Assembly: GCF_020164555.1 (NCBI RefSeq)
Contig: NZ_JAIQZB010000006.1
Span: 62,001 to 126,000, forward strand
Direction: 5' to 3'
Source: Salegentibacter lacus
Lineage (GTDB): Bacteria > Bacteroidota > Bacteroidia > Flavobacteriales > Flavobacteriaceae
DNA length: 64,000 nt
The notes under the pieces were generated by a model that was not told the DNA's origin, did no database searches, and was given only the letters and a program-made list of their open reading frames with translations. Below, in pieces: positions 13,349-33,243 of this stretch. A program made the translations under genes and the position numbers. Numbering within the stretch: the first letter of the stretch is position 1; every line of letters begins with the position of its first letter.

Positions 13349-13392
13349 CAAATTAAAAGGAATTTACGAAGGAAGACAGTAACAATTGTTAC
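13349..13392 (-). promoter_or_regulatory. Crp/Fnr-type operator and promoter of the YeeE/YedE operon
   Basis: On the minus strand the palindrome GTAACAATTGTTAC (13379-13392) is followed after exactly 22 bases by TTAATTTG (13349-13356), a one-mismatch version of the Bacteroidetes -7 box TAnnTTTG. The operator centre falls near -41 relative to the expected start of transcription, the class II activator position. Four further copies of this layout occur in the window. Confidence 0.8.
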
Positions 13393-13453
13393 AGGTGACA
13401 ATAATTTCAGAGAAAGTTAGTATTTATAGAACTAAAGAGATTGTAATCTTTTT

Positions 13454-13501
13454 AGAACCTGAAATAAACCCGCCTGAACGGATAGGCAGGTTCAGGGTGA
13501 C
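13454..13501 (-). repeat. REP-like palindromic repeat, longer variant
   Basis: Read on the minus strand it starts GTCACCCTGAACCTG and ends TTTCAGGTTCT, matching the unit at 10306-10331 but with an inserted inner palindrome (GCCTATCCGTTCAGGC region). It lies between the YeeE operon promoter and the convergently placed dehydrogenase 3' end. Confidence 0.45.
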
Positions 13502-13527
13502 TTACTTATTTTCAGAATTCTCTTTAG

Positions 13528-14430
13528 CTAATTGAAATATGATTTTAAATTCTCCAGCACTTTTTCAGATAAACGTCTTTGGGTTTCGGCACTCCAACCG
13601 GCGCTTTTTTTATGAGAAATTACCCGATTTAATTCTTTTGTTTCTTTGGAAAGCGAAGCCCCACCATCACCATCAAAAATTGCAAAGTTGCCTTCAGACT
13701 TTATCCAGCTTACAAAGGCTTTTTCTTCAAAAGGAAGCCCAAGAGAGGTATTGATTAAAATTTTTCCTGTACCAAAAGTTTTAAATTCCTCTTCTCCCAA
13801 TAATTTTGTATTCTTAGGAAGGTGAAGTGAGATTATTTCAGTGGTTTTCAACAATTCTTCTAAAGATAAATATTGAAGTCCTTTAGCTTCCCAATTATTC
13901 TTTTTACTTCTACTGAAATAGTAAAGATCGGCTCCAAGTGGTAACAATGCTTCTGCTAACATTTGCCCAGTGGTGCCCAAACCAATAATTCCAATCTTTT
14001 TATCGGTAAGTTCTACCGGCATTTTTCGCCATTGGTGTTCACCAAAACCATGCAGTAACCGAATCAATTCAGAAACTATAAATTCTATAACCCCGGGATC
14101 TCCATAATCAAAAATCCCTTTGACGGTAATTCCCCGGTCCCTGGCGAAATCTACCGCTACGTTTGCCGATTCATCATCATACAGGCTGCAAGCCATTCCG
14201 ATGTATTTAAGATGACTACATTTTTCAATAACACTTTTTGGAATTTGGGTCTTCCATGAAACTATAACAGCTTCTGCGTCCCCAATTCGTGCTATAAGTT
14301 CCTTTTCTGAATCTGGACTGTCTTTAAAAACCTCAACCTCAGCTTCACTGTACTGCTGGAGTTCTTCAATAGCCCAGTCTTCTAATTTAGTATGATCTAC
14401 ACATACAATCTTTTTGAATTTTACTCCCAT
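13528..14430 (-). CDS. D-2-hydroxyacid dehydrogenase-like NAD-binding protein with altered active site
   Basis: 300 residues with the two-domain fold of D-isomer-specific 2-hydroxyacid dehydrogenases: a nucleotide-binding GIIGLGTTGQMLAEAL at about residues 148-163 and LHLPKNTKLLG near 198-208. The canonical N-T-(A/S)-R-G motif with the catalytic Arg reads INTSLG, so Arg is replaced by Leu, and the expected Glu in the DxFExEP region is not seen (FDGDGGASL). A His remains in ISHKKSAGWS. It may bind NAD without the normal dehydrogenase chemistry. Its start overlaps the stop of a 48-residue gene. Confidence 0.75.
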   Translation of the reverse strand: MGVKFKKIVCVDHTKLEDWAIEELQQYSEAEVEVFKDSPDSEKELIARIGDAEAVIVSWKTQIPKSVIEKCSHLKYIGMACSLYDDESANVAVDFARDRGITVKGIFDYGDPGVIEFIVSELIRLLHGFGEHQWRKMPVELTDKKIGIIGLGTTGQMLAEALLPLGADLYYFSRSKKNNWEAKGLQYLSLEELLKTTEIISLHLPKNTKLLGEEEFKTFGTGKILINTSLGLPFEEKAFVSWIKSEGNFAIFDGDGGASLSKETKELNRVISHKKSAGWSAETQRRLSEKVLENLKSYFN

Positions 14431-14567
14431 TCCGGTAGTGTAGTTTCATCATAAACCTGGTTCAGTAATATGCCGTCTTCACGAATCTTTCTGGAAGTTT
14501 CAAATTCCAGTTCTAACTTTTTTCTTTCGAATTTTATATTTGATCTAGTAGTCTCAGACACGCTCAT
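14421..14567 (-). CDS. 48-residue hypothetical protein, translationally coupled to the dehydrogenase-like gene
   Basis: An ATG at 14567 opens a 48-codon frame whose last codons (GGGAGTAA) overlap the ATG of the following gene by ten bases. The peptide begins MSVSETTRSNIKFERKKLEL and is highly charged and probably helical, ending DETTLPEWE. No domain recognised. Its position, 47 bases after the carboxyltransferase gene and overlapping the next gene, supports translation as part of the operon. Confidence 0.6.
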   Translation of the reverse strand: MSVSETTRSNIKFERKKLELEFETSRKIREDGILLNQVYDETTLPEWE

Positions 14568-14614
14568 TATTTTTTTAGGTTTAGCATTTTAAATATGATT
14601 AAAAACAAGATATT

Positions 14615-16159: not shown

Positions 16160-16193
16160 TATTTTTTTAACTTTAACTTAAACGATTCGAACA

Positions 16194-18353: not shown

Positions 18354-19694
18354 TTATGAAAACTCTTTAATCGCTTCACTTAGGTCAAAAACTTTGGCAT
18401 TCTTAAATTTGTTTTCAAGAATACTGCTTCCTGCAGCTGAGCGATATCCACCGGCACAGTGTACCATGAAGGGTTTATCCTCTGGTAATTCATCTGCACG
18501 ATCTCTAAGCTCATTCAAAGGAATTGCTTTGGCATCATCAAAGATCTTACCTTCTTCAATCTCGCTTTCATTTCTTATATCTACGATGGTATAATTATCC
18601 TTATTAGATTTAAAATCTTCCAGTTTAAAATCATCTGATGATTTTGAAACTTTTTCAGATAAAGTCACTACTCCTTTCATTTGCTTTTCATAACCGATTT
18701 TAGCAGTTCTTTCTAGCAAATCGTCAATTTGATCTACGCTTTCAACAACAAGGTAAAATTCCTCTTCCGGCTCAATAATAGCGCCTAACCAGGTTTCATA
18801 CTTATCGCCTTCCGATCTTGCCATTATATTAATACTGTTTGGCAAATGTCCTTTTTTGTAAACATTGCCATCACGAGTATCTACAACGGTTGTTCCTTCT
18901 TCTTCTAAGGAATCTACATAAAGTTTAACCGGAACTTCATATTTTGCCTTTTGAACATTTAAAGCACCTTTTCGGTTTATTTCCACATTAAATCCAAAAT
19001 ATGAAGGAATAAAGGGTTGATCCTTTAGGATTTCTTCTAAAAACTCTTCTTCAGTTTGGTCTTTAAAAGCCCAGTTTCCCTGGCGCTCATTTCCTAATGT
19101 ACTGGAAGAAGCGTCACTCATATTTTTCCCGCAAAGCGAACCTGCACCGTGAGCAGGGTAAATTAATGTATCATCTGGCAAATCGTTAAATTTGGTTTGC
19201 ATTGTGTTGTACATTTGTTTAGCCAATTCTACACGCTTTGCTTTCATATTACCAGCTTTTTCGCGTAAATCTGGTCTCCCAACATTTCCAATAAAAAGCG
19301 TATCTCCACTAAACATAACGGTTTCGCCGTTTTCTTCAGCAATAAAAGTTAAACTATCTGGCGAATGGCCGGGAGTGTGTAATGGCTTTATACTTGCGTT
19401 TCCAATTTTCACTTCATCTCCTTCATCAAAAGGTGTGTGCGAATATTCTACGCCAACTTTTTCACTAATATAAATTGTTGCACCGGTTTCCTTCTGAATC
19501 TGCAAATGCCCACTCACAAAATCGGCGTGAGGGTGAGTTTCAAAAACCGCCACGATCTTTGCATTGTTCTCTTCGGCAAATTTATAGTATTGCATAGGAT
19601 TACGGCTTGGATCTACCAAAGCCATTTCTCCATTGCTTATCAGCGCGTAAGAATAATGCGCAAGTGGTTCGTCTTTAAACTGTTTTATTTTCAT
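18354..19694 (-). CDS. CstB-like metallo-beta-lactamase persulfide dioxygenase with two rhodanese domains
   Basis: 446 residues. An N-terminal MBL-fold domain carries THPHADFVSGH (about 53-63), HTPGHSPDSL, GDTLFIGNVGRPDL (about 130-143) and YPAHGAG (about 178-184), the iron-binding set of persulfide dioxygenases. A first rhodanese-like domain (about 255-350) has DTRDGNVYKKGHLPNS but no active-site Cys loop. A second (about 355-446) has HCAGGYRSA with the catalytic Cys. This MBL + pseudo-rhodanese + rhodanese order and length match Staphylococcus aureus CstB (about 444 residues), which oxidises sulfane sulfur to sulfite or thiosulfate. Starts inside the 3' end of the desaturase gene. Confidence 0.87.
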   Translation of the reverse strand: MKIKQFKDEPLAHYSYALISNGEMALVDPSRNPMQYYKFAEENNAKIVAVFETHPHADFVSGHLQIQKETGATIYISEKVGVEYSHTPFDEGDEVKIGNASIKPLHTPGHSPDSLTFIAEENGETVMFSGDTLFIGNVGRPDLREKAGNMKAKRVELAKQMYNTMQTKFNDLPDDTLIYPAHGAGSLCGKNMSDASSSTLGNERQGNWAFKDQTEEEFLEEILKDQPFIPSYFGFNVEINRKGALNVQKAKYEVPVKLYVDSLEEEGTTVVDTRDGNVYKKGHLPNSINIMARSEGDKYETWLGAIIEPEEEFYLVVESVDQIDDLLERTAKIGYEKQMKGVVTLSEKVSKSSDDFKLEDFKSNKDNYTIVDIRNESEIEEGKIFDDAKAIPLNELRDRADELPEDKPFMVHCAGGYRSAAGSSILENKFKNAKVFDLSEAIKEFS

Positions 19695-20604
19695 TTTCTG
19701 TCTTTTTTAAATTATAAACTGATTTCTGTGTATTATTTTTTTTAAATGGAAATACCATTTGATTTTTAAAATCTTGCGGAAATTCTTCATCTCCTTCAAA
19801 ACCTAATTCTATATCTTTTCCTTCCTGAGGAATATATGCTGTCCCAAACAAGTAATCCCAAATACTCAAGCTTAAGCCGAAATTCATTCCATAAGGTCTG
19901 TCTTCCGGAAGGGCTTTGGAGTGATGCCAGATATGCATTTTAGGATTATTCAACAGATATCCGAAAACACCATAATTCCAGCCCACATTCGCGTGATTTA
20001 AATGCCCAATGAAAACTGCAAACATATGCACCACAAAAAATTCCTGAATTCCAAAGCCAATCATTGCCAGCGGAATATACTGCACGGTTTTATAAATAAT
20101 GGTTTCCATAAAATGAAACCTAAACTGTGCGGCAAAGCCCATTTCCTTAGCGCTGTGGTGCACTTTGTGAAACTCCCAAAGCCACGGCTGTTTGTGCAAC
20201 TGCCGGTGAACATTCCATTGTATAAAATCGGCTATAATGAACATTATTAGCAATTGTACCCAAATCGGGAAGTTTTGTACTTCTATGGCCACAATATTGG
20301 TAATTCCGAATAGGCCAAGGAAATCGTTAAACAATTCCACGGCAACGTTCGAGATCGCATTATAACCAACCAGCGAAAACAGGAAAAAATTAAATAAAAT
20401 ATAGAACGTATCCAGCCAAAAATCCTTTCGAAAAATCTTTTGATCTTTTCTCCAGGGGATTAATATTTCCAGCACCCAAACTAAAAGCGACAATCCAATT
20501 AACCAATAGAAATAATTGGTCCAGGAAGGATTGCTAATTTCGTTAACCAGGTAATTAAAATACCCGGTAAAAGAATCGGCAATTATGTTTAAGTACTTTT
20601 CCAA
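19675..20604 (-). CDS. Sterol desaturase / fatty acid hydroxylase family membrane protein
   Basis: 309 residues with about five membrane helices. The di-iron histidine clusters are clear: HRQLHKQ, HKVHHSAKE (about residues 132-152), FIGHLNHANV and HIWHHSK (about 225-231). Family members oxidise C-H bonds of lipids in the membrane using O2. It is the first gene of the operon with the CstB-like dioxygenase (20-base overlap) and starts 54 bases from a GTAAC-N4-GTTAC operator. Its substrate and link to sulfur chemistry are unknown; sulfonolipid modification would be only a guess. Confidence 0.85.
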   Translation of the reverse strand: MEKYLNIIADSFTGYFNYLVNEISNPSWTNYFYWLIGLSLLVWVLEILIPWRKDQKIFRKDFWLDTFYILFNFFLFSLVGYNAISNVAVELFNDFLGLFGITNIVAIEVQNFPIWVQLLIMFIIADFIQWNVHRQLHKQPWLWEFHKVHHSAKEMGFAAQFRFHFMETIIYKTVQYIPLAMIGFGIQEFFVVHMFAVFIGHLNHANVGWNYGVFGYLLNNPKMHIWHHSKALPEDRPYGMNFGLSLSIWDYLFGTAYIPQEGKDIELGFEGDEEFPQDFKNQMVFPFKKNNTQKSVYNLKKTENENKTV

Positions 20605-20627: not shown

Positions 20628-20671
20628 CAAAAATATAATAATCCTACACTAAGGGCAGTAACTTTTGTTAC
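20628..20671 (-). promoter_or_regulatory. Crp/Fnr-type operator and promoter of the desaturase/CstB-like operon
   Basis: Palindrome GTAACTTTTGTTAC at 20658-20671, then 22 bases, then TATTTTTG (20628-20635), a perfect TAnnTTTG box read on the minus strand. The geometry is identical to the other four sites of the window. Confidence 0.82.
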
Positions 20672-21997: not shown

Positions 21998-23236
21998 TTA
22001 ACTCTTAAATTTCAATAATTTCCGGGTTTTATTATCTCTATAATCCATTCTAATAAAAATAATAGCTGCTGAAATTAAAGTAAGAATACCAATTAACATA
22101 ATCGCGGCCTCAATACTTACCAAATCGGCAATTACTCCAGTTAGCACTGCTCCTATCGCATAACCTAAATCTCGCCAAAGTCTGAAAACACCGATACTTT
22201 TTGCCCGGTCTTGTGGATGGGTATAATCGGCAATAGTTGCCAGAAAAGTTGGGTATACCATTGCGGTTCCCCAGCCGAGTAAAGAAGAAAGTATCACAAA
22301 ATGTGTCATTGTTTCGGCCCAAACCAAAATCACCAAAACTATTGCTTGTAAGAGCATCCCGATAAACAGCATATCTTTCTTACTAAAAATATCGGCCATC
22401 CTACCGGTAAACAATTGCCCTATGCCCCAAACTGCGGGATAAAGCGCTGTAACAATTCCTATTTGTTCAAGATTAAAACCTTTTCCGGAAAGTAAGATTG
22501 GAAATAATCCCCAGGCCATCCCGTCATTAAGATTATTGATTAAACCTGCCTGACTTACAGAACCAAGGTTTTTATCTTTCCAGGTAGTATCCCAAAAAAT
22601 ATTCTTTAATCGAGACATCCCGCTGCTGCCTTCTTCTTTAGCTACGTGATGTCTGGTGTCTTTTACAAAGAAAATACTGAAAAGTAATCCCAATAACATT
22701 AATACAATCCCAATATAAAACGGATAAGGCCTTAAACCATATTCTGAAGCGATCCAACCAGTTAAAAATGCCACTACAGCTACCGCAAAATACCCGGCAA
22801 ATTCGTTTAATCCCATGGCAAAACCACGCTGCTTTTCACCTACAAGATCAATCTTCATAACCACGGTACTACTCCAGGCCAATCCCTGGTTAATTCCCAG
22901 CAAAACATTGGCAACAATAATCCAGTTCCAGTTTTCGGCATAAATTAGGATAAACGGAATAGGAATGGCAAAAATCCATCCTAACACCAGAAGGTTTTTT
23001 CTTCCAAATTTATTAGCAAGAGCACCCGCGTAATAATTGGAGATTGCTTTTACCACTCCAAAAACCACGATAAACGATAAAATAGCGCTAGTTGCCGCTA
23101 TGCCAAATTCTTTCTCGGCAATTTCGGGTAAGATACTACGTTCCAGACCTACCATCCCACCAACAAAAGCATTCACCAGAACCAGCAAACTAAATTGCTT
23201 CCAGTTTTCTTTTAATCCTAATTTTATATTTTCCAT
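21998..23236 (-). CDS. Major facilitator superfamily transporter
   Basis: 412 residues with 12 membrane helices. The loop 2-3 motif GALANKFGRKNLLVLG and its repeat GRMADIFSKKDMLFIG after helix 8 are typical MFS signatures. It follows the outer-membrane porin gene by 17 bases and is therefore probably expressed from the operator-controlled promoter at 24651-24694. The substrate is not shown. The shared promoter type suggests a sulfur-containing or oxidised sulfur solute, which is an inference. Confidence 0.85.
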   Translation of the reverse strand: MENIKLGLKENWKQFSLLVLVNAFVGGMVGLERSILPEIAEKEFGIAATSAILSFIVVFGVVKAISNYYAGALANKFGRKNLLVLGWIFAIPIPFILIYAENWNWIIVANVLLGINQGLAWSSTVVMKIDLVGEKQRGFAMGLNEFAGYFAVAVVAFLTGWIASEYGLRPYPFYIGIVLMLLGLLFSIFFVKDTRHHVAKEEGSSGMSRLKNIFWDTTWKDKNLGSVSQAGLINNLNDGMAWGLFPILLSGKGFNLEQIGIVTALYPAVWGIGQLFTGRMADIFSKKDMLFIGMLLQAIVLVILVWAETMTHFVILSSLLGWGTAMVYPTFLATIADYTHPQDRAKSIGVFRLWRDLGYAIGAVLTGVIADLVSIEAAIMLIGILTLISAAIIFIRMDYRDNKTRKLLKFKS

Positions 23237-23253: not shown

Positions 23254-24624
23254 TTAAAAGTTAAAGTTCGTCACAAAATTCAACTGGTTAAAATTACTCT
23301 TATTAAAAATGCTTTGAGCATCGGTGTGGTTTTGATTTTTTCTATAAATCCATAAAATATCAAAACTCAGGCCTTCGAGAAATCCACTGGCATAATAACT
23401 TAAATGACTATTTACCTGAAAAGATTCATCTACATTATATTTATTAAATTTAAACTTACCGGTTTCCGGGCCTTGCAATTGTTGCATCTCCATCCCAATA
23501 TGAAAATCGGGCTTTGGTAAGTGATATTGAGCCTTAATTGTAAAAACATCTATATTTCCCAAACCTTCCAGGCGCGATCTTGGAATTGAAGTAAAAAATT
23601 GATCCCGCCCTAGTTCCTTCGGAAATAAAAATCGGCCCGAATCAAAAGCGTGGGTATAGGCAAACGTTAAATTTAAACCGGCATTCTCCCAATTAAGCTG
23701 TGAACTTAAAACCTGTCCATTTTCATCGGGTTGAACATATCGCTTTAAGAAATCCAGGTCTTCTGAATAAGAAAAAGGATTTTGATATACATATTGAATT
23801 CCAAATTTAAAATCTGCCAGGTCATAGCCGGCTTCTGCCCAAATCGTATTCATCACTTTATCCAGATAAAAATCATAAAATTTCAGCTCAAAATTCTCGC
23901 TTTTAAAATTATAATTTATAATCCCAATTCCAGAAGAAGGATAGGATTCATGATATTCAGCCATTTCTCCATTAGGCTGAAATCCGTTATAGAAAAGTCC
24001 TATTGTTTCTTCCATAGAGAACCACTCGGTAGTTGAACGAGGCGAAGCTCCATCAAGCCAACCTAAATTAACCTGATGTTTTATACCGAAATTTAAGTGT
24101 GCCCAGGCACCACGATGGGCAAAGGGTTTCATTCGGCCGTCGCTATGGTTTAAAAGCGGAGTAAATTCAGTTTCCAATTTTCCATAACTTAAATAAGAAT
24201 TCCCAAAACGATAGCGAATAAATAGTTCCTCTAACCTATCAAGATCATTGAAATTTCCTTTGTTTATCACATCATAAAGTTCATATTCCCACTTTGCATT
24301 TTTACCCGTGACTGCGTCTTCTATTCCCAGATCACTGCCAAAAGTCTTAAAAGTAAAAATTCCCTTTACCCCAATCTCAAAACCTTTAAAATTTCCCGTT
24401 GTGAATCCCACTGCACCGCCGGTTGCATTAGTATAATAATTTTGTAAATCGCCCCGGTTAATGGTATTCATAAAATAATTACGAAAGTGGCCATGAAAAT
24501 GGGCATTGATAAAAATATCCTTCAATTGAGGGTCTTCCTCTTTTAAAGATGTTTTGTGTTGTGCATTCAAATAAAAGCTCAGGAAAAAAGCAAAAACCAG
24601 AGGGGTTAACTTTATATTCTTCAA
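23254..24624 (-). CDS. Outer membrane porin, OprD-like
   Basis: 456 residues with an N-terminal signal peptide (MKNIKLTPLVFAFFLSFYLNA, cleavage near NAQ). The mature protein is rich in alternating aromatic beta strands and ends in a C-terminal Phe (NFVTNFNF), typical of outer-membrane barrels. The early stretch GHFRNYFMNT and TGGAVGFTTGNFKGFEIGV resemble the OprD family. It probably provides a specific outer-membrane pore for the solute moved by the MFS carrier encoded 17 bases downstream. The OprD assignment is from pattern only; the barrel call is firmer. Confidence 0.72.
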   Translation of the reverse strand: MKNIKLTPLVFAFFLSFYLNAQHKTSLKEEDPQLKDIFINAHFHGHFRNYFMNTINRGDLQNYYTNATGGAVGFTTGNFKGFEIGVKGIFTFKTFGSDLGIEDAVTGKNAKWEYELYDVINKGNFNDLDRLEELFIRYRFGNSYLSYGKLETEFTPLLNHSDGRMKPFAHRGAWAHLNFGIKHQVNLGWLDGASPRSTTEWFSMEETIGLFYNGFQPNGEMAEYHESYPSSGIGIINYNFKSENFELKFYDFYLDKVMNTIWAEAGYDLADFKFGIQYVYQNPFSYSEDLDFLKRYVQPDENGQVLSSQLNWENAGLNLTFAYTHAFDSGRFLFPKELGRDQFFTSIPRSRLEGLGNIDVFTIKAQYHLPKPDFHIGMEMQQLQGPETGKFKFNKYNVDESFQVNSHLSYYASGFLEGLSFDILWIYRKNQNHTDAQSIFNKSNFNQLNFVTNFNF

Positions 24625-24650: not shown

Positions 24651-24694
24651 CAAAAGTCTTTTAATTCTGGAGCTACTACTGTAACAAGGGTTAC
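24651..24694 (-). promoter_or_regulatory. Crp/Fnr-type operator and promoter of the porin/MFS operon
   Basis: Palindrome GTAACAAGGGTTAC at 24681-24694. After 22 bases the minus strand reads GACTTTTG (24651-24658), matching TAnnTTTG except for the first base. Lies back to back with the operator at 24714-24727. Confidence 0.75.
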
Positions 24695-24713: not shown

Positions 24714-24757
24714 GTAACATTAGTCACAAAACGCTTCACTTGTTTGCTTTATATTTG
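24714..24757 (+). promoter_or_regulatory. Crp/Fnr-type operator and promoter of the DoxX/DsrE/SoxB-like operon
   Basis: GTAACATTAGTCAC (24714-24727, one mismatch in the right half) followed by 22 bases and the perfect -7 box TATATTTG at 24750-24757. The ATG of the first gene lies 8 bases further on. There is no good TTTG -33 element at the expected place, in keeping with an activator-dependent promoter. Confidence 0.8.
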
Positions 24758-24765
24758 AAAATTAA

Positions 24766-25122
24766 ATGAAATTAAATACTTACATAGCGATTTTTCTTAC
24801 CTTGGTTTTCTTCGGAAAATTCCTGCTGCTGGACACAAAGGTGCTCAACAGCATTTTAGGTACCGATGAAATTGCATTAGTAAATACGTTATGTAAGAAA
24901 AAAATTAAGAAATCTGTAGATACGGTAAATCTTTCACAGAAATCTTCGGTACTCGTTATTAATTCTGAGGCATTGTGTAATGCCCCATTCTACATTCCAA
25001 AAATTAACTTGTCCGAAGTTGAACAAATAAATAATTTTCAGGATTTCAGTTACTTAAATCCTTCTGTTATTTCCACCTATTTTTCTAAAAATTACCCACC
25101 TCCGAAGTTATTAGTGGCATAA
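24766..25122 (+). CDS. Hypothetical protein with N-terminal membrane anchor, first gene of the sulfur operon
   Basis: 118 residues. A hydrophobic N-terminus (about 5-23, YIAIFLTLVFFGKFLLL) could be a signal or anchor, followed by a Lys-rich segment with CKKKIKK and a second Cys in ALCNAPFY. The C-terminus is polar with no domain I recognise. It starts just 8 bases after the -7 box, so the transcript would have almost no leader, and it precedes the DoxX gene by 61 bases. Function unknown; context points to periplasmic or membrane sulfur handling. Confidence 0.65.
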   Translation: MKLNTYIAIFLTLVFFGKFLLLDTKVLNSILGTDEIALVNTLCKKKIKKSVDTVNLSQKSSVLVINSEALCNAPFYIPKINLSEVEQINNFQDFSYLNPSVISTYFSKNYPPPKLLVA

Positions 25123-25183
25123 TCGAATCAAATTCCGGATCCAAATCTGGATAAATATGATTTTTCACTAATCTTAAATTAAC

Positions 25184-25591
25184 ATGAATACAAAAATTTT
25201 AGTAAGTCGTCGCTCTATACAAGTCTTTAGAGTGATGCTCAGCGGGATATTTCTCGTGGCCAGTTTACATCATTTACTCAATGTAGATAAAACGGTGCAA
25301 AGAATAGATCAGGCTAATTTTAAAGGAATTGCTTACTTCTTTGGGCATCCCGAATTTATGGTAATAATATCAGGCATTGTTATGCTTCTAGCGGGCTCCA
25401 GTTTGCTTATAGGCTACAAAACACGCTGGTCATCAATAATTTTACTGGCGGTTTTAATACCTATTACTCTAACCATACAGGTTGGACAAATAACCACATT
25501 AGGCCCCCTATTTAAAAATGTTGCGATTTCAGGCGGACTCCTGTTTTTTATACTAAATGATTTTAAAGATCAACAAATAACAAAAATATAA
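25184..25591 (+). CDS. DoxX-family membrane protein
   Basis: 135 residues with four membrane helices, the DoxX/DoxD fold. FRVMLSGIFLVASLHHLLN at the start and GIVMLLAGSSLLIGYKTRWSS in helix 2-3 follow the DoxX pattern. DoxD-type proteins are the membrane subunit of archaeal thiosulfate:quinone oxidoreductase, and DoxX in mycobacteria belongs to a membrane thiol-stress complex. Here it stands between the leader gene and two DsrE-like genes, so a role in passing electrons from periplasmic sulfur compounds to quinone is plausible but inferred. Confidence 0.82.
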   Translation: MNTKILVSRRSIQVFRVMLSGIFLVASLHHLLNVDKTVQRIDQANFKGIAYFFGHPEFMVIISGIVMLLAGSSLLIGYKTRWSSIILLAVLIPITLTIQVGQITTLGPLFKNVAISGGLLFFILNDFKDQQITKI

Positions 25592-25621
25592 CCGACTGTT
25601 TCAGTCACAAAAATTCAAAAA

Positions 25622-26038
25622 ATGAAAAAGATAATTCTAATTTTCACAGCTTTTATAATGCTGTTTTCAGTAAATACGCAAGCACAAAATCACGATACAG
25701 AAAAGAATAACTACGTGGTTTTAACCAAGAAAATTCCGCAATTACAACCTATTTTAATTACTGCGGAAGAATTGAAAAAAGAAGACGGACATCATTTTGG
25801 TGATTTCCAAATTATCGTTTGTGGTCAAACCGTGAAAGGTTTAACCGATAAAGAGGAAATGAAAAAATTCACCGAAAGGGCTAAAAAGGCCGGAGTTGCA
25901 ATAAAAGCCTGCGGATTTTCCCTGAATAAATTCGAAGTAAATCCCGATGAAATTCCTTCAGAAATAGAAATCGTAGAAAATGGTATTCTATACAATTTTC
26001 AACTTCAGAAAAAAGGATATTTCAGTATAGAGCTTTAA
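25622..26038 (+). CDS. Exported DsrE-like sulfur-carrier protein, copy 1
   Basis: 138 residues with a signal peptide (MKKIILIFTAFIMLFSVNTQAQ) followed by a DsrE/DsrF-like alpha/beta domain. Cys67 lies in FQIIVCGQ and Cys97 in IKACGFSL; the second is at the place where DsrE-fold proteins carry the persulfide-binding cysteine. Copy 2 is encoded 10 bases downstream, aligns over nearly its whole length, and keeps only the second cysteine. It probably binds or carries sulfane sulfur in the periplasm. The DsrE-fold assignment is made from motif and context. Confidence 0.75.
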   Translation: MKKIILIFTAFIMLFSVNTQAQNHDTEKNNYVVLTKKIPQLQPILITAEELKKEDGHHFGDFQIIVCGQTVKGLTDKEEMKKFTERAKKAGVAIKACGFSLNKFEVNPDEIPSEIEIVENGILYNFQLQKKGYFSIEL

Positions 26039-26048
26039 AAAAAGAGAA

Positions 26049-26468
26049 ATGAAAAAATTAACAGGAATATTACTAGTGTTCTTAACCTTAGGTTTTTCAA
26101 TGAATGCTCAAATGGCAGCTGGAGATCATAAGAATAATTACATAGTATTAACAACAAAGATCCCTCAAATGGAACCAATTATCCTTACCGCTAATTCTTT
26201 GAAAGAGGAAGACGGTGAGAAATTTGGCGACTTCCAGATAGTCTTGTATGGACTCAATATTAAAGGGCTTACTAACATAAAAGAAATGGATAAGTATGTA
26301 AATAAAGCTAAGGCTACAGGTGTACAAATAATGGTTTGTAAACTTTCCCTGGCTAAGCTAAAAATTAATTCCACAGATCTTCATCCATATATTAAGGTCG
26401 TAGATCACGCATTTACTCATGCTATTGAACTACAAAAAAATAAAAACTATTACAGTCTTGAATTATAA
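26049..26468 (+). CDS. Exported DsrE-like protein, copy 2
   Basis: 139 residues with signal peptide (MKKLTGILLVFLTLGFSMNAQ). It aligns with copy 1 without gaps for about the first 100 residues (NYIVLTTKIPQMEPIILTA against NYVVLTKKIPQLQPILITA). Position 67 is Tyr (QIVLYGLN) instead of Cys, while Cys97 in IMVCKLSL is kept. The pair arose by tandem duplication and then diverged, possibly into a heteromer in which one partner carries an extra cysteine. Its stop precedes the SoxB-like gene by 10 bases. Confidence 0.75.
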   Translation: MKKLTGILLVFLTLGFSMNAQMAAGDHKNNYIVLTTKIPQMEPIILTANSLKEEDGEKFGDFQIVLYGLNIKGLTNIKEMDKYVNKAKATGVQIMVCKLSLAKLKINSTDLHPYIKVVDHAFTHAIELQKNKNYYSLEL

Positions 26469-26478
26469 AATAATAAAT

Positions 26479-28128
26479 ATGAAATTTAATTTAAAAGCAG
26501 TTCTTGGGATGTTAACCGTCCTGGTAAGTGCAGGTCTCACCTCTTGTAAAGAATCAAGCAAAGAGGATTCATTAAGTAAAGATGCTAATAAATCAACTAA
26601 AATCACCATTTTACAAACTGCCGATATTCACGGGCAACTGGACTCTCACCCCGAATTATTCTGGGAAAATGAAGAAATAGTTTTTAAAGAACGTGGGGGC
26701 CTGGCGCATATTCAAACCTTATTTAAGGAAGAACGGGCAAAAAACCCGAATACGGTGATTTTGGATGGAGGCGATCTAATCCAGGGAAGCGGTTATGCCG
26801 CGTTGTCTGAAGGGAAAATTTTCCCCGACATCATTAAAAATATGGATTATGATCTTATTGTACCCGGAAACTGGGAAGTGGTTTACGGCAAACAGGTGAT
26901 GATGGATGTTTTACAGGCTTTTGAAACACCTGTAATTGTTCAGAATATGTTTCATAATGATAATAAAAAAGAGCTTTTCCCTCCTTACTGGATCAAAGAA
27001 ATCGAGGGTGTAAAACTCGGATTTATAGGTATTAACGATCCCGATGTTCCTGTGCGGCAAAACCCGATCTTTAGCGAAGGAATTGCTTTTAGCGGACTGG
27101 ACGATGGTGTGGAAGAATTGATCCAGAAAGTAAAAAACGAAGAAAAAGTTGATGCGTTGTTTCTCGTAACACATTTCGGGATTTTTAAGCAGGTAGAACT
27201 TGCAAACAACCCAATAGCAAAGGATGTAGATTATATTTTTGGAAACGATACCCACGAACGGGTTCGGGAGCCTATTGAAGGTAAATACGCCAAAGTTACC
27301 GAACCCGGAGCTTTTGGTTCCTTCGTTGGGAAATTAGATCTTTATTTTAAAGATGGCGAAATTGTAGACCAGGAATATGAATTGATGGATGTGGATCCTA
27401 AAAAATATCCAGCCGATCCTGAAATCGCCGAGTTGGTTAAGAAGGCTAAAGCTCCTTACAAAGAACATTTGGAAACCGTAATTGGTTATACTGAAACTCC
27501 ACTTTACCGCTACTTAACCGTAGAAAACCCAATGGATAATATGATTACCGATGCTGCACGCTGGAAAACCGGCGCAGATATCTCCATCTCTAACGGATTT
27601 CGATTTGGAAATCCTATAGTTCCCGAAAACGGAAAACCGGCTCCTATCACCCGGGCTAATTTATGGAACTTATTACCGGTAAATGAAAAAGTAAAAACGG
27701 GAAAAGCCAGTGGAAAGCAGATCAAAGACTGGTTGGAAAATGAAATGCATAATGCATTTGCCCAAAATTCAAAAGAACGCTTTGGTGGCTGGCTGGTAAG
27801 ATTTTCAGGAATGAAAGTCAATTTTAATTCTCAAAATGAAAAAGGTAAACGAATACAATCGGTTACTGTGAAAGGTGAAGAGATGCAGGATGATGAATAT
27901 TATACCATTTCAGCCTGCGTGAGACCAGGCGACCCGATAGATAACCTTTGCCGAATGCCAAATGTAAAAGATGTTGAGGTAAAAGATTATACCATTCACG
28001 AACTGGTAGAAGAATATTTGCAAAAAAATTCGCCTGTGTCCCCTAAACTGGATGGACGCGCTTATTGCGAATATTTAGGCGAAAAATCGTTTTCAACAGT
28101 TCCCGGAACCGATTATAAATTTCAATAA
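26479..28128 (+). CDS. SoxB-like 5'-nucleotidase-family lipoprotein
   Basis: 549 residues from the ATG at 26479, chosen because it gives a lipoprotein signal ending in LTSC (Cys23); an upstream in-frame ATG at 26419 lies inside the previous gene. The metallophosphoesterase domain has TADIHGQLD, DGGDLIQGSG and VTHFGIF, but the usual GNHE motif reads GNWEVVYG, which resembles the GHWEF motif of SoxB. The C-terminal domain has ISNGFRFGNPIVP and FGGWLVRFSGMKV, both close to SoxB patterns. SoxB cleaves sulfate from protein-bound thiosulfate. Function as a sulfur hydrolase is likely but inferred; nucleotide hydrolysis is the alternative. Confidence 0.78.
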   Translation: MKFNLKAVLGMLTVLVSAGLTSCKESSKEDSLSKDANKSTKITILQTADIHGQLDSHPELFWENEEIVFKERGGLAHIQTLFKEERAKNPNTVILDGGDLIQGSGYAALSEGKIFPDIIKNMDYDLIVPGNWEVVYGKQVMMDVLQAFETPVIVQNMFHNDNKKELFPPYWIKEIEGVKLGFIGINDPDVPVRQNPIFSEGIAFSGLDDGVEELIQKVKNEEKVDALFLVTHFGIFKQVELANNPIAKDVDYIFGNDTHERVREPIEGKYAKVTEPGAFGSFVGKLDLYFKDGEIVDQEYELMDVDPKKYPADPEIAELVKKAKAPYKEHLETVIGYTETPLYRYLTVENPMDNMITDAARWKTGADISISNGFRFGNPIVPENGKPAPITRANLWNLLPVNEKVKTGKASGKQIKDWLENEMHNAFAQNSKERFGGWLVRFSGMKVNFNSQNEKGKRIQSVTVKGEEMQDDEYYTISACVRPGDPIDNLCRMPNVKDVEVKDYTIHELVEEYLQKNSPVSPKLDGRAYCEYLGEKSFSTVPGTDYKFQ

Positions 28129-28187: not shown

Positions 28188-28805
28188 TTAAATTATTGGC
28201 TTTTTAGCCACAAACCGAATTACAGCAGCTTTTCCCTGGTGATATTTACCTTCTGAAAGCTCCGTTATTCTGTCTTCAAATTCTTCAAATTTATAACCGC
28301 CAAAAATAGTTTGTAATTCTTCTTTGGAAAACAACATTTCAGCGTTCTTAGGTCCACCCGACTGAGGATTTTCTTTTTGAATATCTATTTGTTCTTTGCT
28401 AAAAGCTTCAAAGATAACAACTCCATCAGGCTTTAATAAACTTTTAAATTCTTCAATATAGTTTTGTTTATCCTCTGGAGAAAAATGGGCAAAGATTAAA
28501 GCTATAACATCAAATTGCTCCTTTTTATAACCCAACTCAGGCAATCTCCCTACTTTATAATCAATTTTGACGCCTTCTTCTTCAGAAAGTTTTAAGGCTT
28601 TCTCTTTTCCTTTTTCACTAATATCGAAAGCGGAAACTTCCCAGTCTTTAGAAGAAGCATAAACAGCATTCCGTCCCTCCCCTTCAGCTGGAAACAGGAT
28701 TTTTCCCGGCGCTATTTCACCAATTTTATTCTTAAAATATTTGTTCGGGGCTTTACCGTACACATAATCTTTTTCAGCATATCGCTCGTTCCAAAAATCT
28801 TTCAT
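28188..28805 (-). CDS. Class I SAM-dependent methyltransferase, TehB/thiol-methyltransferase-like
   Basis: 205 residues. It begins KDFWNERYAEKDYVYGKAPN, common in small TehB/thiopurine-type methyltransferases, and the SAM-binding motif reads ILFPAEGEGRNAVYA (about residues 36-50), with FDVIALIFAHF as motif IV. Possible substrates are thiols, selenite or tellurite. It is the last gene of a compact minus-strand run from cydA, with 6 bases to the preceding gene. A role in methylating reactive sulfur species would fit the context but is not proven. Confidence 0.8.
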   Translation of the reverse strand: MKDFWNERYAEKDYVYGKAPNKYFKNKIGEIAPGKILFPAEGEGRNAVYASSKDWEVSAFDISEKGKEKALKLSEEEGVKIDYKVGRLPELGYKKEQFDVIALIFAHFSPEDKQNYIEEFKSLLKPDGVVIFEAFSKEQIDIQKENPQSGGPKNAEMLFSKEELQTIFGGYKFEEFEDRITELSEGKYHQGKAAVIRFVAKKPII

Positions 28806-28811
28806 AAGCTT

Positions 28812-29426
28812 TTATTTTTTTCTAAAACAACAAAAAGTGAAATTTTGAATAGCCCCGGTTGGGGTTTTATGATCTATATTTTCTGAGCTTAAAAGCTCAA
28901 ATTTATTTTGTAATAATTCCTGAAGATCTTCTTTTGAATATTGTTTAATTGTTCTTCCGCTGCATTTTTCGGGACCGTTTTTTGAAAAGGTCGCTAAAAT
29001 TATAAATCCGCCTGAAGCTACTGAATTTTCTAAGTTTCGTATATAATTTTCAATTTGGTGTTCTTCGGTTAAAAAATGAAAAGCAGCACGATCGTGCCAG
29101 AGATGATAAACTTGAGTTACTTCAAATTCTGTAGCATCAGCAACTATCCAGTTTACCTTTTGAGCATCATCCTTTAGACGATTTTTTGCTTTTTCGATTG
29201 CTTTTTTAGAAATATCAAAAACAGAAATATCCCGATATCCCTCTTTTAATAAATAGTCTACTAGATTTGAATCTCCTCCTCCAACGTCTATAATTTTAGA
29301 ACATTGAGGTAAATCCAAATCTTTTATAAGCTGCAAAGAGGTTTCGGGTTTCTCCTGGTACCAACTTGCATCTTCATAAGATTTCTTTTGGTAAACCTCT
29401 TCCCAATGTGATTTTGTTTCTTTCAT
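28812..29426 (-). CDS. Class I SAM-dependent methyltransferase
   Basis: 204 residues. The start KETKSHWEEVYQKKSYEDASWYQEKPE and SAM motif IIDVGGGDSNLVDYLL (about residues 41-56), then VFDISKKAIEKAK, define a class I methyltransferase. The CxR-rich C-terminus FCCFRKK ends in two cysteines. It starts 2 bases after the cydB stop, so it belongs to the same transcript. Substrate unknown. Confidence 0.82.
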   Translation of the reverse strand: MKETKSHWEEVYQKKSYEDASWYQEKPETSLQLIKDLDLPQCSKIIDVGGGDSNLVDYLLKEGYRDISVFDISKKAIEKAKNRLKDDAQKVNWIVADATEFEVTQVYHLWHDRAAFHFLTEEHQIENYIRNLENSVASGGFIILATFSKNGPEKCSGRTIKQYSKEDLQELLQNKFELLSSENIDHKTPTGAIQNFTFCCFRKK

Positions 29427-29428
29427 AA

Positions 29429-30460
29429 TTAATCTTTTTCCGGTTTTTCCAGCACTTTAATCATATTGAAAGATTTCATTAAATGAAAAAGACCAGGTAA
29501 AATTACAAATCCGCCAATTAGTAACATAATCGCTAAATTGCTTATGGTAGATTCAGGAGCAATATTATTTAGCAGACTAATTTCTTCTTCTGCAGTAATG
29601 ATAATATAAGGAAAATGAGCGTAAAGGGCGGCGAAAAGTATTAAAACAACCTGAAAACCCGCTAAATACCTACTCGCAACTCTATATTCCTTTTTAATAA
29701 ATTTCCAAAGCGGAAATAATAAGATTCCCGATAAGCCCACGCAGGCTAGTGAAACCGGATTTTGAATAAAATCTTCAGCAAATTTAATCCCGGTGAAATA
29801 TCCATAACTGATAAGAATAACGCCTAGCACTACCAATACTAACGTGAAAAATGCTGAATTCTTAGCGTAATGCTTTCTGGCTTTTCCGTCAGCTTCCCCA
29901 ATTAAAAACGTTGAAGCTAAAAAGGCACAAAGTGCGGCATAAAATAAACCTACAAGTAAGGCGAAAATATTCAGCCAATGCTGCATAAAAAGGTCGTAAA
30001 AACCGAAAGTCTCATAATCTTCGGTAATAATTATTTCTCCACCAATTAATGCTCCGAAAGACATTCCCAGGAAAATTGGGGTCACAAAACTTCCAATTCT
30101 AAAAAGCCAGTTATACCAAAACTGAGATTTATCTAAAACCGCATCGTAATGTCGAAAAACAAAAGCTACACCACGCAAAGTAATTCCTAGTAGCACCAGG
30201 CTTAAAGGAATATGCAGGTAAATAATCATTAGATTAAAATAAGCCGGAAAAGCCACCCATAGAATAACCAGCATAATTATTAACCAGATATGGTTAGCTT
30301 CCCATATTGGTCCCATTACCCGATAAATTGTATCGCGGGTATGTTCTTTATTTCTGGCCGAAGAAAACAACTCAACGATCCCGGCACCAAAATCGGCGCC
30401 CCCCAGAAGCACATACAATAGAAGCGAAAACAATAGAAAAAACAGAACGATATAAAGCAT
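29429..30460 (-). CDS. cydB: Cytochrome bd ubiquinol oxidase subunit II
   Basis: 343 residues with eight or nine membrane helices. VLLGGADFGAGIVELFSS near the N-terminus and GPIWEANHIWLIIMLVILW (about residues 49-67, with the conserved WExNHxW) are CydB signatures. Together with CydA it oxidises quinol with oxygen at high affinity. bd oxidases are less sensitive to sulfide than heme-copper oxidases, which suits the upstream TauE-led sulfur operon. Confidence 0.93.
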   Translation of the reverse strand: MLYIVLFFLLFSLLLYVLLGGADFGAGIVELFSSARNKEHTRDTIYRVMGPIWEANHIWLIIMLVILWVAFPAYFNLMIIYLHIPLSLVLLGITLRGVAFVFRHYDAVLDKSQFWYNWLFRIGSFVTPIFLGMSFGALIGGEIIITEDYETFGFYDLFMQHWLNIFALLVGLFYAALCAFLASTFLIGEADGKARKHYAKNSAFFTLVLVVLGVILISYGYFTGIKFAEDFIQNPVSLACVGLSGILLFPLWKFIKKEYRVASRYLAGFQVVLILFAALYAHFPYIIITAEEEISLLNNIAPESTISNLAIMLLIGGFVILPGLFHLMKSFNMIKVLEKPEKD

Positions 30461-30528
30461 AATTAATCTTTGGTTTTATTCCCACCAGTGGGCTTAATAT
30501 TACACGGCTAGTCACGATCAAAAAAACT

Positions 30529-31848
30529 TTAAGTGGTCTTATCCTCATCCTCAGGTTCCTGATTTAAGGATTTAATTTGTCGGTTCATCAACCAAGTTAC
30601 CGTTATGGCCAAAACGGTATAGAGAAAAAGGTAATAGAAGAAGCTATATTTCATACCCGGCATTGGGGTTACAGCATCTTCAGTTCTCATAATTTGGTGA
30701 ATAATCCAGGGTTGTCTTCCAACTTCGGTCACTATCCAACCAGCTTCAATAGCGATAAAACCAAGCGGCGCAACTACAATAAACAATAACCAGTAATATT
30801 TATTTTGAAGCCAGTTTTTCTTTCTTAAACTGATAAAATAAATCAATCCTGCAAACATCAGCAAGGTACCTATGCCAATCATAGTCTGGAACGCATAATG
30901 TACAATTGCCACGGGTGGCAGTTCATCATCAGGAAAATCGTTTAGTCCCTTTACTTCGGCATCAAAATCACCAAAAGCAAGAAATGATAAAGCTTTTGGA
31001 ATTTCAATTTTATGTGAAATAGTTCGATTTTCTTCATCTACAATTCCGCCTATGTAAAGCGGAGCTCCTTTTTGAGTTTCATAATGTGCTTCCATAGCGG
31101 CGAGTTTCACCGGTTGACGCTCTGCCACGTCTTTTGCTGAAAGATCGCCACTTATAGGTTGTAGAAAGGCTGCAACGGCCCCAAAAACAATCGCGATTTT
31201 AAAAGCTTTGGTATGTAATTCTACATTTCTTTTGCGAAAAATCTGAAAAGCGTGAATTCCTGCCACTCCAAAACTGGTTGCAACAAAAGCAGCCAAAGTC
31301 ATATGCAGTGCCTGGGTAAACCAGGCCGGATTTAAAAATGCCGCAACAGGATCTATATTAGTAAATTCGCCATTAATATATTCGAAGCCGGATGGCGCAT
31401 TCATCCAGCCGTTAGCCGAGACAACAAGAATTCCTGAAGCAACCCCGGAAACTCCGATAATAATTCCGGTAAACCAGTGAAATTTTTCTGGCAGTTTGTC
31501 CCAACCATAAAGGTAAAAACCAAGAGCGATGGCTTCAACGAAAAATGCGGCACCTTCCAGAGAAAACGGCATTCCTATAATGGGACCGGCGTGTTTCATA
31601 AATTCTGGCCAGAGCATTCCCAGTTCAAAAGAAAGCGCGGTTCCCGAAACAGCCCCGGTAACAAAAAAGATTGCCACTCCCTTTAACCAGGCCATGGTCA
31701 ATCTTTTATATATCGGATTTCTTGTTTTTAGCCATTTATGGTGTGAAACCACCATAAAAAAGGGCATTACCATACCAATACAGGCAAAAATGATATGAAA
31801 GCCTAAGGTAAAAGCCATTTGTAGGCGGGCGTAATCTAAATTCTCCAT
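30529..31848 (-). CDS. cydA: Cytochrome bd ubiquinol oxidase subunit I
   Basis: 439 residues with nine helices. Heme ligands are at expected places: His18 in LGFHIIFACIG (His19 of E. coli), a His in LHMTLAAFVATS (about 183), and the Met late in the chain. GRQPWIIHQIMRT is the conserved GRQPW quinol-site motif. The Q-loop is short compared with E. coli CydA (522 residues), as in the short-loop class. It starts 55 bases after the PEMT/ICMT-like gene. A possible separate promoter in that gap is not obvious. Confidence 0.93.
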   Translation of the reverse strand: MENLDYARLQMAFTLGFHIIFACIGMVMPFFMVVSHHKWLKTRNPIYKRLTMAWLKGVAIFFVTGAVSGTALSFELGMLWPEFMKHAGPIIGMPFSLEGAAFFVEAIALGFYLYGWDKLPEKFHWFTGIIIGVSGVASGILVVSANGWMNAPSGFEYINGEFTNIDPVAAFLNPAWFTQALHMTLAAFVATSFGVAGIHAFQIFRKRNVELHTKAFKIAIVFGAVAAFLQPISGDLSAKDVAERQPVKLAAMEAHYETQKGAPLYIGGIVDEENRTISHKIEIPKALSFLAFGDFDAEVKGLNDFPDDELPPVAIVHYAFQTMIGIGTLLMFAGLIYFISLRKKNWLQNKYYWLLFIVVAPLGFIAIEAGWIVTEVGRQPWIIHQIMRTEDAVTPMPGMKYSFFYYLFLYTVLAITVTWLMNRQIKSLNQEPEDEDKTT

Positions 31849-31903
31849 TAAGTCTTAGTTTATTGATTTCAAGCCATTTCAAAAAGACTAATCAATATAA
31901 TTT

Positions 31904-32356
31904 TCAACGAATAAATTTAGGGAAAAATCTTCCCGTGTCCTGCCGGTAATCACGATATTTTGAATACTTTAAGCATAATTGTTCTTCTTCGTATTCTGAT
32001 TTAAACCAGAATAAAATTAGCAATAAAACCGTAATTCCTATCTTAAAGCCGGACGCGAAATACAGGGATAGAAAAAATAAAAAAATTATAACTCCGGAAT
32101 AAATAGGGTGTCTAACATATTTAAATAATCCGGTTGTAATTAACGTTGCATTTTTCTTTGGCTTCGGAAAAGGAGAGAGATTAGTATTGAGTTGAAGTAT
32201 TGAAATTATAATTATAAAAAAACCAATACCACTTAAAATTAAAAAAACCGGCTGAAACAATTCCAACCGGTTAAATTCTAAAGCTTTAATATCAATTACC
32301 CAGGCTATAAAAAGCACAAATTGCATCCCGACAAAAAAGTAGTTTTTAAATGGCAT
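31904..32356 (-). CDS. Isoprenylcysteine/phospholipid methyltransferase-family membrane protein
   Basis: 150 residues with about four helices. LFKYVRHPIYSGVIIF (about residues 90-105) contains the RHPxY motif that, with a distal Glu pair (EYEEEQLC), defines the ICMT/PEMT-like family. These are membrane SAM-dependent methyltransferases; the bacterial members, including NnrU/DUF1295 relatives, often have unknown substrates. It lies 25 bases after tauE. Confidence 0.8.
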   Translation of the reverse strand: MPFKNYFFVGMQFVLFIAWVIDIKALEFNRLELFQPVFLILSGIGFFIIIISILQLNTNLSPFPKPKKNATLITTGLFKYVRHPIYSGVIIFLFFLSLYFASGFKIGITVLLLILFWFKSEYEEEQLCLKYSKYRDYRQDTGRFFPKFIR

Positions 32357-32381
32357 CGCATCAGTTTTCTATTCCCTGAAT

Positions 32382-33179
32382 TTACGAAATTTCAGCCCAA
32401 ATAATATAAACACCCATTATTAGCACAAACCAGCCAAAACCTTTTTTCAGTTTTTTCCCATCTATAAATTTATTGAGATAAATTCCTATAAACATTCCCA
32501 CCATGGCAAGTCCGGAGAAAATTGCCAAGAACAGCCAGTTAATTTCCATATTTTGAATATCTCCAATAAAACCTATCAGCGATTTAATGGCAATAATTAA
32601 CAATGACGTCGCCACGGCTTTTTTCATTGGAAGTTTAGCCAAAAGCACTAAGGCAGGAATAATTAGAAATCCGCCACCGGCACCAACGATTCCGGTAAGT
32701 ACTCCAACCACAATCCCTTCAATAATAATTAGGGGATAATTATAAGTTATTTCAACATTTTCTAATTTTTCCTTACCATTATCGCGAATCATAGAAATTG
32801 AGGCCAATACCATAATAATGGCAAAAAACAACATTATTCCAATGTTCTTCGTGATTTCAAAATCTCCAATACTAAAAAGAGATTCTGGAATTGCAGGAAC
32901 CATCCACTTTCTTGTGGAATAAACAGCAATAAAAGCAGGAATGGAAAACACGATAGCCGTTCTAAAATCTACCAGTTTTTTCTGCATATTTTTAAACGCG
33001 CCCACTAGAGCAGAAGCTCCTACCACAAAAAGAGAATATGCTGTGGCAGTTACGGGATTAATTGCAAGTAAATAAACCAATACTGGAACCGTTAATATTG
33101 AACCGCCGCCACCTATAAGGCCTAAGACCACGCCAATTACTAATGCTCCAAAGTAACCCAGTATTTCAAGTATTTCCAT
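32382..33179 (-). CDS. Sulfite/sulfonate exporter, TauE/SafE (TSUP) family
   Basis: 265 residues with eight helices. The family repeat is clear: GVVLGLIGGGGSILTVPVLV near the N-terminus and VGVLTGIVGAGGGFLIIPALVLL after the midpoint. TauE/SafE proteins export sulfite or organosulfonates. In staphylococci a TauE-family exporter is encoded with CstB. Here it is first in a likely six-gene operon (tauE, ICMT-like, cydA, cydB, two methyltransferases) behind the operator at 33230-33243. Removal of sulfite made by the CstB-like enzyme is the likely task. Confidence 0.88.
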   Translation of the reverse strand: MEILEILGYFGALVIGVVLGLIGGGGSILTVPVLVYLLAINPVTATAYSLFVVGASALVGAFKNMQKKLVDFRTAIVFSIPAFIAVYSTRKWMVPAIPESLFSIGDFEITKNIGIMLFFAIIMVLASISMIRDNGKEKLENVEITYNYPLIIIEGIVVGVLTGIVGAGGGFLIIPALVLLAKLPMKKAVATSLLIIAIKSLIGFIGDIQNMEINWLFLAIFSGLAMVGMFIGIYLNKFIDGKKLKKGFGWFVLIMGVYIIWAEIS

Positions 33180-33199
33180 ATCTAAATTTTATTATGGCG

Positions 33200-33243
33200 C
33201 AAAAGTACCTGCAATATGGGTGTTTTACAGTAACAAGGGTTAC
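33200..33243 (-). promoter_or_regulatory. Crp/Fnr-type operator and promoter of the TauE-CydAB operon
   Basis: GTAACAAGGGTTAC at 33230-33243, 22 bases, then the perfect -7 box TACTTTTG read on the minus strand (33200-33207). It lies directly after the stop codon of the Crp/Fnr-like gene. Confidence 0.85.

Follow-up and report, generated by a model that had tools for sequence, protein, structure and literature searches.

A candidate sulfur regulon of a Crp/Fnr-family protein in Salegentibacter lacus and related Bacteroidota

The sulfide and persulfide regulators of other phyla belong to several protein families, namely CstR of the CsoR family, SqrR, BigR and SoxR of the ArsR family, and the sigma-54 regulator FisR. 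Among the Crp-fold regulators, Escherichia coli CRP has the consensus half-site GTGA. The canonical promoters of NtcA, as given in passages of PMC3898017, are of class II with the site GTAN8TAC at about -41.5, and one described promoter has 22 nucleotides between this site and the -10 box. For sulfide sensing in Flavobacteria and other Bacteroidota no description was found in the openly licensed literature searched, and a Crp/Fnr sulfide regulon of Bacteroidota was likewise not found described in the part of the search results that was inspected. The present analysis deals with a stretch of 64,000 nucleotides of the Salegentibacter lacus genome (contig NZ_JAIQZB010000006.1, hereafter the window), in which five units composed of a palindrome and a promoter box precede sulfur-related operons, and with a Crp/Fnr-family gene adjoining one of these units. 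The five units probably serve as class II promoters within a single regulon, with this Crp/Fnr protein as the activator on which they depend (probability about 0.8).

The window scan revealed the exact palindrome GTAACNNNNGTTAC (GTAAC-N4-GTTAC) at four places and a copy with one mismatch at a fifth (Table 1). The -7 box starts exactly 22 bases past the palindrome in all five units; this TAnnTTTG-like box is perfect in three of them and has one mismatch in the other two. The five units are thus as the first-pass annotation had described them, and they precede the operons which it had named. Its further statement, that the window has no other copy of the motif, is true of exact matches, and one-mismatch copies exist at 782 and 33374. 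Neither of these is a composite match (palindrome, spacing and box) at up to two mismatches; the former was dropped as a regulon site on this ground and the latter as it falls within the regulator gene. At up to one mismatch the palindrome gave 7 window matches versus 0.94 expected, a number reached in none of 100 shuffles.

The specificity of the motif was analysed beyond the window. The bare palindrome occurred 6 times in the source genome versus 4 for its reversed control, and across 120 family genomes its counts were mixed and often below the control; with counts not above the reversed control it was rejected as a genome-wide marker. One exact copy (C107:85223) lies within dnaJ and was taken as chance. 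This lack of enrichment would suit an explanation by chance or by low-complexity repetition of a short palindrome. The composite, however, gave 160 sites in 80 of the 120 family genomes and was present in 26 of 296 phylum genomes, while its reversed control was found in none of either set. The specificity resides in the composite with the box and not in the bare palindrome, the distribution of the composite is not random, and the explanation by chance is already refuted, its probability being negligible. At up to three mismatches the source-genome scan returned noise (54 matches versus 76 for the control). At up to one mismatch it returned 8 composite sites, where the base composition predicts 0.005 exact and 0.25 one-mismatch sites (about 0.26).

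The neighbourhood of the regulator was then compared among relatives. The named-orthologue set comprised the best 80 of 579 confirmed orthologues with up to 10 kb on each side (1.51 Mb in all), and every 5-base inverted repeat with spacers of 0-12 (13,312 kinds) was counted in it without bias. GTAAC with spacer 4 ranked first with 204 occurrences versus 1.22 expected, which also stands against chance, and ranks 2 and 3 were overlapping sub-frames of the same palindrome. At least one palindrome was present in 77 of the 80 loci, and for 199 of the 204 sites the start of an open reading frame (ORF) lies within -60 to 300 bases. A perfect TAnnTTTG was found at offset 22 in 104 of the 204 sites and at any other offset in at most 2; with at least 5 of 6 letters matching, offset 22 accounted for 182 sites versus 1-9 for each of the eleven other offsets tried. 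The gene order regulator-site-TauE was common, and homologues of TauE (67 loci), the metallo-beta-lactamase (MBL)-rhodanese protein (56), CydA (26), YeeE (23) and sulfide:quinone reductase (SQR; 16) were counted from ORFs picked by a simple script. The composite is conserved upstream of orthologues in many genera, and the assignment of the five window units to one conserved regulon is supported by these comparisons.

Among the family genomes, 103 of 120 had a regulator match at E <=1e-20, some of these being probably paralogues, and 95 had one at E <=1e-60, which was taken as a strong orthologue. The composite was present in 78 of these 95 genomes (absent in 17) versus 2 of the 25 others (absent in 23), giving a Fisher p of 6.8e-12, and of the 160 sites 158 belong to genomes that have such an orthologue. 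A hand count in the phylum showed the composite in 21 of 28 genomes with a best match at E <=1.2e-70 versus 5 of 268 others; one of the 21 is G279, where the regulator has glutamate at residue 183 (Glu183).

The protein encoded at 33250-33882, a candidate which the first-pass annotation had not pointed out and whose stop codon is 6 bases away from the palindrome at 33230, would bind as a dimer to GTAA-N6-TTAC, usually in the form GTAAC-N4-GTTAC. The palindrome centre is expected near -41.5, over the place of the -33 element, because the palindrome ends 22 bases ahead of the Bacteroidota -7 box, and the bound regulator would recruit RNA polymerase in the NtcA manner. The composite has the NtcA-type class II layout (GTAN8TAC at a fixed distance of about 22 nucleotides from a -10-type box), which is meant as a working mode and not as membership. 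No conserved -33 TTTG was visible in the site profile. Class II activation is therefore inferred from this fixed NtcA-like layout, the Bacteroidota -7 box and the lack of a conserved -33 TTTG; that the protein binds these sites, that it activates and does not repress, where transcription starts and which ligand it senses have the standing of predictions. The same protein might instead act as a repressor released by sulfide or persulfide in the manner of SqrR/BigR and CstR, since the palindrome overlaps the -33 place, which could be occluded, and since repression is the mode of well-known regulators of reactive sulfur in other phyla. However, the spacing is exact to the nucleotide in 182 of 204 sites, as one would expect with a class II activator, whereas repression does not call for it; a conserved -33 TTTG is missing from the profile, and activation is what PMC3898017 describes for NtcA promoters with this layout. 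Repression is thus considered improbable, and activation is retained below.

The link between the regulator and its sites was further analysed at residue 183. Crp mutants with valine at position 181 accept A:T for G:C at the corresponding site position. Residue 183 of the regulator is at the place of Crp Glu181, which a table of PMC12531629 gives as one of three base-contacting residues there. Among 84 distinct loci, those with Val183 had GTAA-N6-TTAC in 44 of 71 and GTGA in 4 of 71, whereas those with Glu183 had GTGA-N6-TCAC in 7 of 13 and GTAA in none of 13; the Fisher p values (1.9e-5 and 9.4e-5) overstate independence because the tree shows only about three changes between V and E. In the Glu183 loci a TTTG stands at the GTAA-site offset in 6 of 9 GTGA sites. 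Hand counts in whole genomes gave the same picture: 13 Glu183 genomes had 39 GTGA composites versus 5 for the control and 28 GTAA composites versus 36, and 13 Val183 genomes had 70 GTAA composites versus 31 and 4 GTGA composites versus 3. When 24 of the 39 GTGA sites of the Glu183 genomes were read, 10 preceded BLAST homologues of the same targets (MBL-rhodanese three times, TauE twice, and once each a rhodanese-domain protein, YeeE, DoxX, CydA and the regulator itself), versus none of the 4 GTGA sites in Val183 genomes. SulP, thioredoxin and peroxiredoxin targets were further recognised by eye, and the remaining 11 of 24 had no clear sulfur target. In these loci and genomes the protein and the site vary together: Val183 is paired with GTAA and Glu183 with GTGA, at the same spacing and with overlapping targets.

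The covariation bears on the explanation that a different DNA-binding protein uses the sites and the Crp/Fnr gene is a mere neighbour. Binding by the Crp/Fnr candidate is itself a deduction, and composites occur where no suitable regulator was matched: two in family genomes that lack a strong orthologue (G010, G088) and two in phylum genomes without a match at E <=1e-25 (G346, G354). Two more are found in G279, whose only regulator match at E <=1e-20 has Glu183; these exact GTAAC composites (L289, L310) stand before TauE and MBL-rhodanese and are at odds with the covariation. On the other side, the presence of the regulator predicts that of the composite across the 120 genomes, and the identity of residue 183 tracks the operator base even at L368, a Glu183 branch inside the Val183 clade with a GTGA site, which makes a different protein very improbable.

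The regulator belongs to the Crp/Fnr superfamily, as given by domain scores above cut-off (39 bits versus 27.5 for PF00027, cNMP_binding; 31.4 versus 27 for PF13545, HTH_Crp_2) and by Foldseek matches to Crp-fold structures. Its recognition helix is S181-R-V-V-I-S-R187, it is 95% identical to the S. tibetensis counterpart, and its closest solved relatives are 3dv8 (Eubacterium rectale) and NtcA. Assignment as E. coli-type CRP was rejected (50 versus 266 bits), the cyclic AMP (cAMP) cassette (GEL...RS) not being intact; an alignment read by eye has Met79 at the place of Crp Glu72 and Lys89 at that of Arg82. NtcA was rejected at its equivalog cut-off (45.5 versus 244.95 bits), and an FNR-type iron-sulfur protein for want of an N-terminal cysteine cluster. 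The only cysteines are Cys77, Cys83 and Cys84, which the alignment places in the segment forming the cAMP cassette in Crp, and all three were kept in 29 of 29 aligned sequences, 80 of 80 named loci and 27 of 28 phylum loci. In some relatives (L337, position 1427; L280) a composite site, not seen in the window, precedes the regulator gene itself, suggesting autoregulation.

The targets would mainly constitute a sulfide and persulfide programme of SQR, CstB-like MBL-rhodanese, rhodanese-like and thioredoxin-fold proteins, together with YeeE/YedE import, TauE export, DoxX/DsrE/SoxB-like proteins and the quinol oxidase CydAB. Five of the 8 source-genome sites lie in the window, and the three outside, which have one mismatch, precede SQR, a rhodanese-like pair and a ResA/TlpA-type protein. 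The SQR target (C41) scored as a type III sulfide:quinone reductase (NF049943, 658.9 bits versus a cut-off of 525); one rhodanese-like protein was scanned and fell below curated cut-offs, the other was judged by eye, and the ResA/TlpA-type protein reached 81.5 bits against a cut-off of 170. The sole two-mismatch site precedes a second SQR-like flavoprotein (178 bits, below cut-off). SQR was not found among the window genes scanned; as its gene carries a site, the candidate enzyme starting sulfide oxidation belongs to the same regulon set. The first-pass proposal of a single activator for a complete programme therefore stands as to the shared regulon and fails as to completeness within the window, because the SQR, rhodanese-like and ResA/TlpA-type genes with sites lie elsewhere in the genome. 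In the family, 145 distinct sites of the 160 counted were read, and a downstream ORF was found for 133, with one representative of most larger classes scanned by profile. The first genes were TauE (31), MBL-rhodanese (29), TolC (27), a protein of about 117 residues before DoxX (6), thioredoxin-fold (6), YeeE (5), SulP (4), cytochrome c (4), CydA (2) and smaller classes. In 6 of the 9 loci inspected by eye (loci in L117-L146 and L177-L280) an MFP-like and an RND-like gene came after TolC, and the substrate of this operon may be a sulfur compound.

Most likely the signal would be a reactive sulfur species that is sensed through Cys77 and Cys83/Cys84 at the place of the cAMP cassette, as suggested by the conserved cysteines there together with the target genes. 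This is the least certain step because the AlphaFold model of the regulator is poor exactly at the cysteines. The same regulator and activation could serve another signal, for instance nitric oxide, oxygen limitation, some small metabolite or a metal, and the sulfur genes would then follow within a respiratory or stress response. CydA as first gene in 2 of 133 cases and as a neighbour of the regulator in 26 of the 80 loci, the many ligands sensed by Crp/Fnr proteins, the ability of vicinal cysteine pairs to bind metals or arsenite and the frequent TolC operons speak for it; TauE and MBL-rhodanese as the commonest first genes, the SQR and rhodanese-like targets of the source genome and the clustering of the three sole cysteines in the former cassette, kept in nearly every orthologue examined, speak for reactive sulfur. 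Another signal is therefore regarded as unlikely, although less so than repression.

Several further observations weigh against the reading of a cysteine-sensing activator of one sulfur regulon. TolC, third commonest among the first genes, could not be tied to sulfur, and not all targets are obviously sulfur genes, the window porin/MFS operon being without an assigned substrate. Exact composites are missing from the 17 genomes with a strong orthologue mentioned above, and 27 of the 71 Val183 loci had no GTAA palindrome in the flanks of about 1.5 kb looked at. Two genomes counted with Glu183 also hold a Val183 paralogue (L400 and L409 in G448; L399 and L410 in G457). The cysteine triad was incomplete at L325 (CSG), L343 (CSC) and L361 (CCM) among 56 tabulated loci. 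The AlphaFold model has an overall pLDDT (predicted local distance difference test) of 76.7, falling below 50 at residues 83-90 and weak at the cysteines. Activation and the start site would follow from sequence geometry.

Beside these points, L325 (genome G119) has neither Cys83 nor Cys84, yet keeps one exact composite site, and the triad also deviates in the more distant paralogues L411-L413. Locating the cysteines by predicted structure was dropped, the model confidence in that segment being too low. G448, with both paralogues, carries GTAA as well as GTGA composites, which looks like two regulons side by side. A Bacteroidota-wide class of direct reactive-sulfur sensors, in which, within a Crp-fold activator, a cysteine triad replaced the cyclic-nucleotide cassette and a natural change of one residue and one base pair, like that of classic Crp specificity mutants, turned Glu183-GTGA into Val183-GTAA while the same kinds of sulfur gene were kept, is given odds barely better than even. 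The architecture, its conservation, the link to the regulator, the covariation and the target genes, in turn, emerge directly from the comparison of sequences.

Table 1. Coordinates of the regulator, the five operator-promoter units and the genes behind them in the window
Feature	Coordinates	Strand	Basis or context
Crp/Fnr-family regulator, candidate activator, 210 residues	33250..33882	-	PF00027, PF13545
Operator palindrome, exact	13379..13392	-	upstream of YeeE/YedE pair
-7 box TTAATTTG, one mismatch, 22 bases from palindrome	13349..13356	-	YeeE/YedE unit
Operator palindrome, exact	20658..20671	-	upstream of hydroxylase/MBL-rhodanese operon
-7 box TATTTTTG, perfect	20628..20635	-	hydroxylase/MBL-rhodanese unit
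Operator palindrome, exact	24681..24694	-	upstream of porin/MFS
-7 box GACTTTTG, one mismatch	24651..24658	-	porin/MFS unit
Operator palindrome, one mismatch	24714..24727	+	upstream of DoxX operon
-7 box TATATTTG, perfect	24750..24757	+	DoxX unit
Operator palindrome, exact	33230..33243	-	upstream of TauE-CydAB
-7 box TACTTTTG, perfect	33200..33207	-	TauE-CydAB unit
YeeE/YedE-type Sulf_transp protein, TsuA-like C-terminal part	12769..13326	-	Pfam PF04143
Second YeeE/YedE half (DUF6691/Sulf_transp)	12346..12759	-	Pfam domain scan
Fatty-acid-hydroxylase superfamily protein	19675..20604	-	PF04116
Metallo-beta-lactamase + rhodanese protein, CstB-like	18354..19694	-	PF00753, PF00581
456-residue protein, putative porin of the first-pass annotation, without Pfam match	23254..24624	-	Pfam scan
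MFS transporter	21998..23236	-	PF07690
Likely operon: 118-residue protein, DoxX, two similar small proteins, SoxB-like/5'-nucleotidase-superfamily protein	24766..28128	+	
Likely operon: TauE/SafE, ICMT-like methyltransferase, CydA, CydB, two SAM (S-adenosylmethionine) methyltransferases	28188..33179	-	

The genes behind the window sites were assigned by domain scans. The TsuA-like protein reached 38.9 bits against NCBIfam TsuA, below its cut-off of 400. In the operon which had been called desaturase/CstB-like, the CstB-like part of the name refers to the MBL-rhodanese protein, and the desaturase was found to be a fatty-acid-hydroxylase superfamily protein. The MBL-rhodanese protein has an N-terminal MBL and a C-terminal rhodanese domain and is matched nearly over its full length by PDB 3tp9 and 3r2u; by the domain criterion it is a CstB-like MBL-rhodanese, with its putative function taken from the domains. 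About 180 bases behind this gene, in the same direction, lie genes for a carboxyltransferase, a biotin carboxylase and a biotin carrier of a biotin-dependent carboxylase (14615-18171, minus strand). The porin/MFS and DoxX operons diverge from one short intergenic region (24681-24727) holding two sites, with 33 bases from the start of one to that of the other. Of the two similar small proteins in the DoxX operon the first had no Pfam match and the second was a weak DsrE match (20.3 bits versus a cut-off of 22.7). The gene at 26419-28128, earlier labelled SoxB-like, was rejected as SoxB at the curated cut-off (TIGR04486, 264.7 versus 550 bits). The two SAM methyltransferases and the ICMT-like membrane one of the TauE-CydAB operon (28188-29426 and 31904-32356, minus strand) make thiol or sulfide methylation possible.

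A named regulator, an operator and a promoter geometry make the sulfide-detoxification programme of Bacteroidota testable. The composite motif predicts regulon members at very little background and flags genes without an assignment, such as the TolC operon, the porin/MFS pair and the DoxX/DsrE/SoxB-like operon, as possibly linked to sulfur. The Val/Glu switch would be a natural case of a transcription factor that has changed in step with a single base pair of its operators throughout a regulon, and the regulon possibly has a new sensor class inside.

Among the described systems, HcpR of Porphyromonas gingivalis (PDB 9day) is likewise a Bacteroidota regulator of the same fold, but it governs nitrosative stress genes. 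PDB 3dv8 is the best match in sequence and fold and has cysteines at the places of 77 and 83; it differs by Glu at 183, and its entry title gives no role. The CstR, SqrR/BigR/SoxR and FisR regulons share the output genes MBL-rhodanese/CstB, SQR, TauE and YeeE, and dithiol sensing is proposed for the present regulator by analogy with them, although these proteins are of unrelated families and are repressors or a sigma-54 activator, not Crp/Fnr proteins. With E. coli CRP the regulator shares the fold, the helix-turn-helix and the base-contacting positions 180/181/185, and half of the Glu183 loci have the CRP-type half-site GTGA with spacing N6; in contrast, it falls below the Crp equivalog cut-off, its cAMP cassette is replaced and its promoter box is different. 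The closest likeness in layout is to the NtcA promoters, with a dimeric activator of the Crp fold, GTA half-sites separated by N8 and the 22-nucleotide distance to the -10 box of one promoter, and an alignment places Arg-Val at the same two positions of the recognition helix. Unlike NtcA, which the regulator is not by sequence score, it carries cysteines in the effector cassette, which in NtcA is the binding place of 2-oxoglutarate, and its promoters have the Bacteroidota -7 box and lead into sulfur instead of nitrogen genes.

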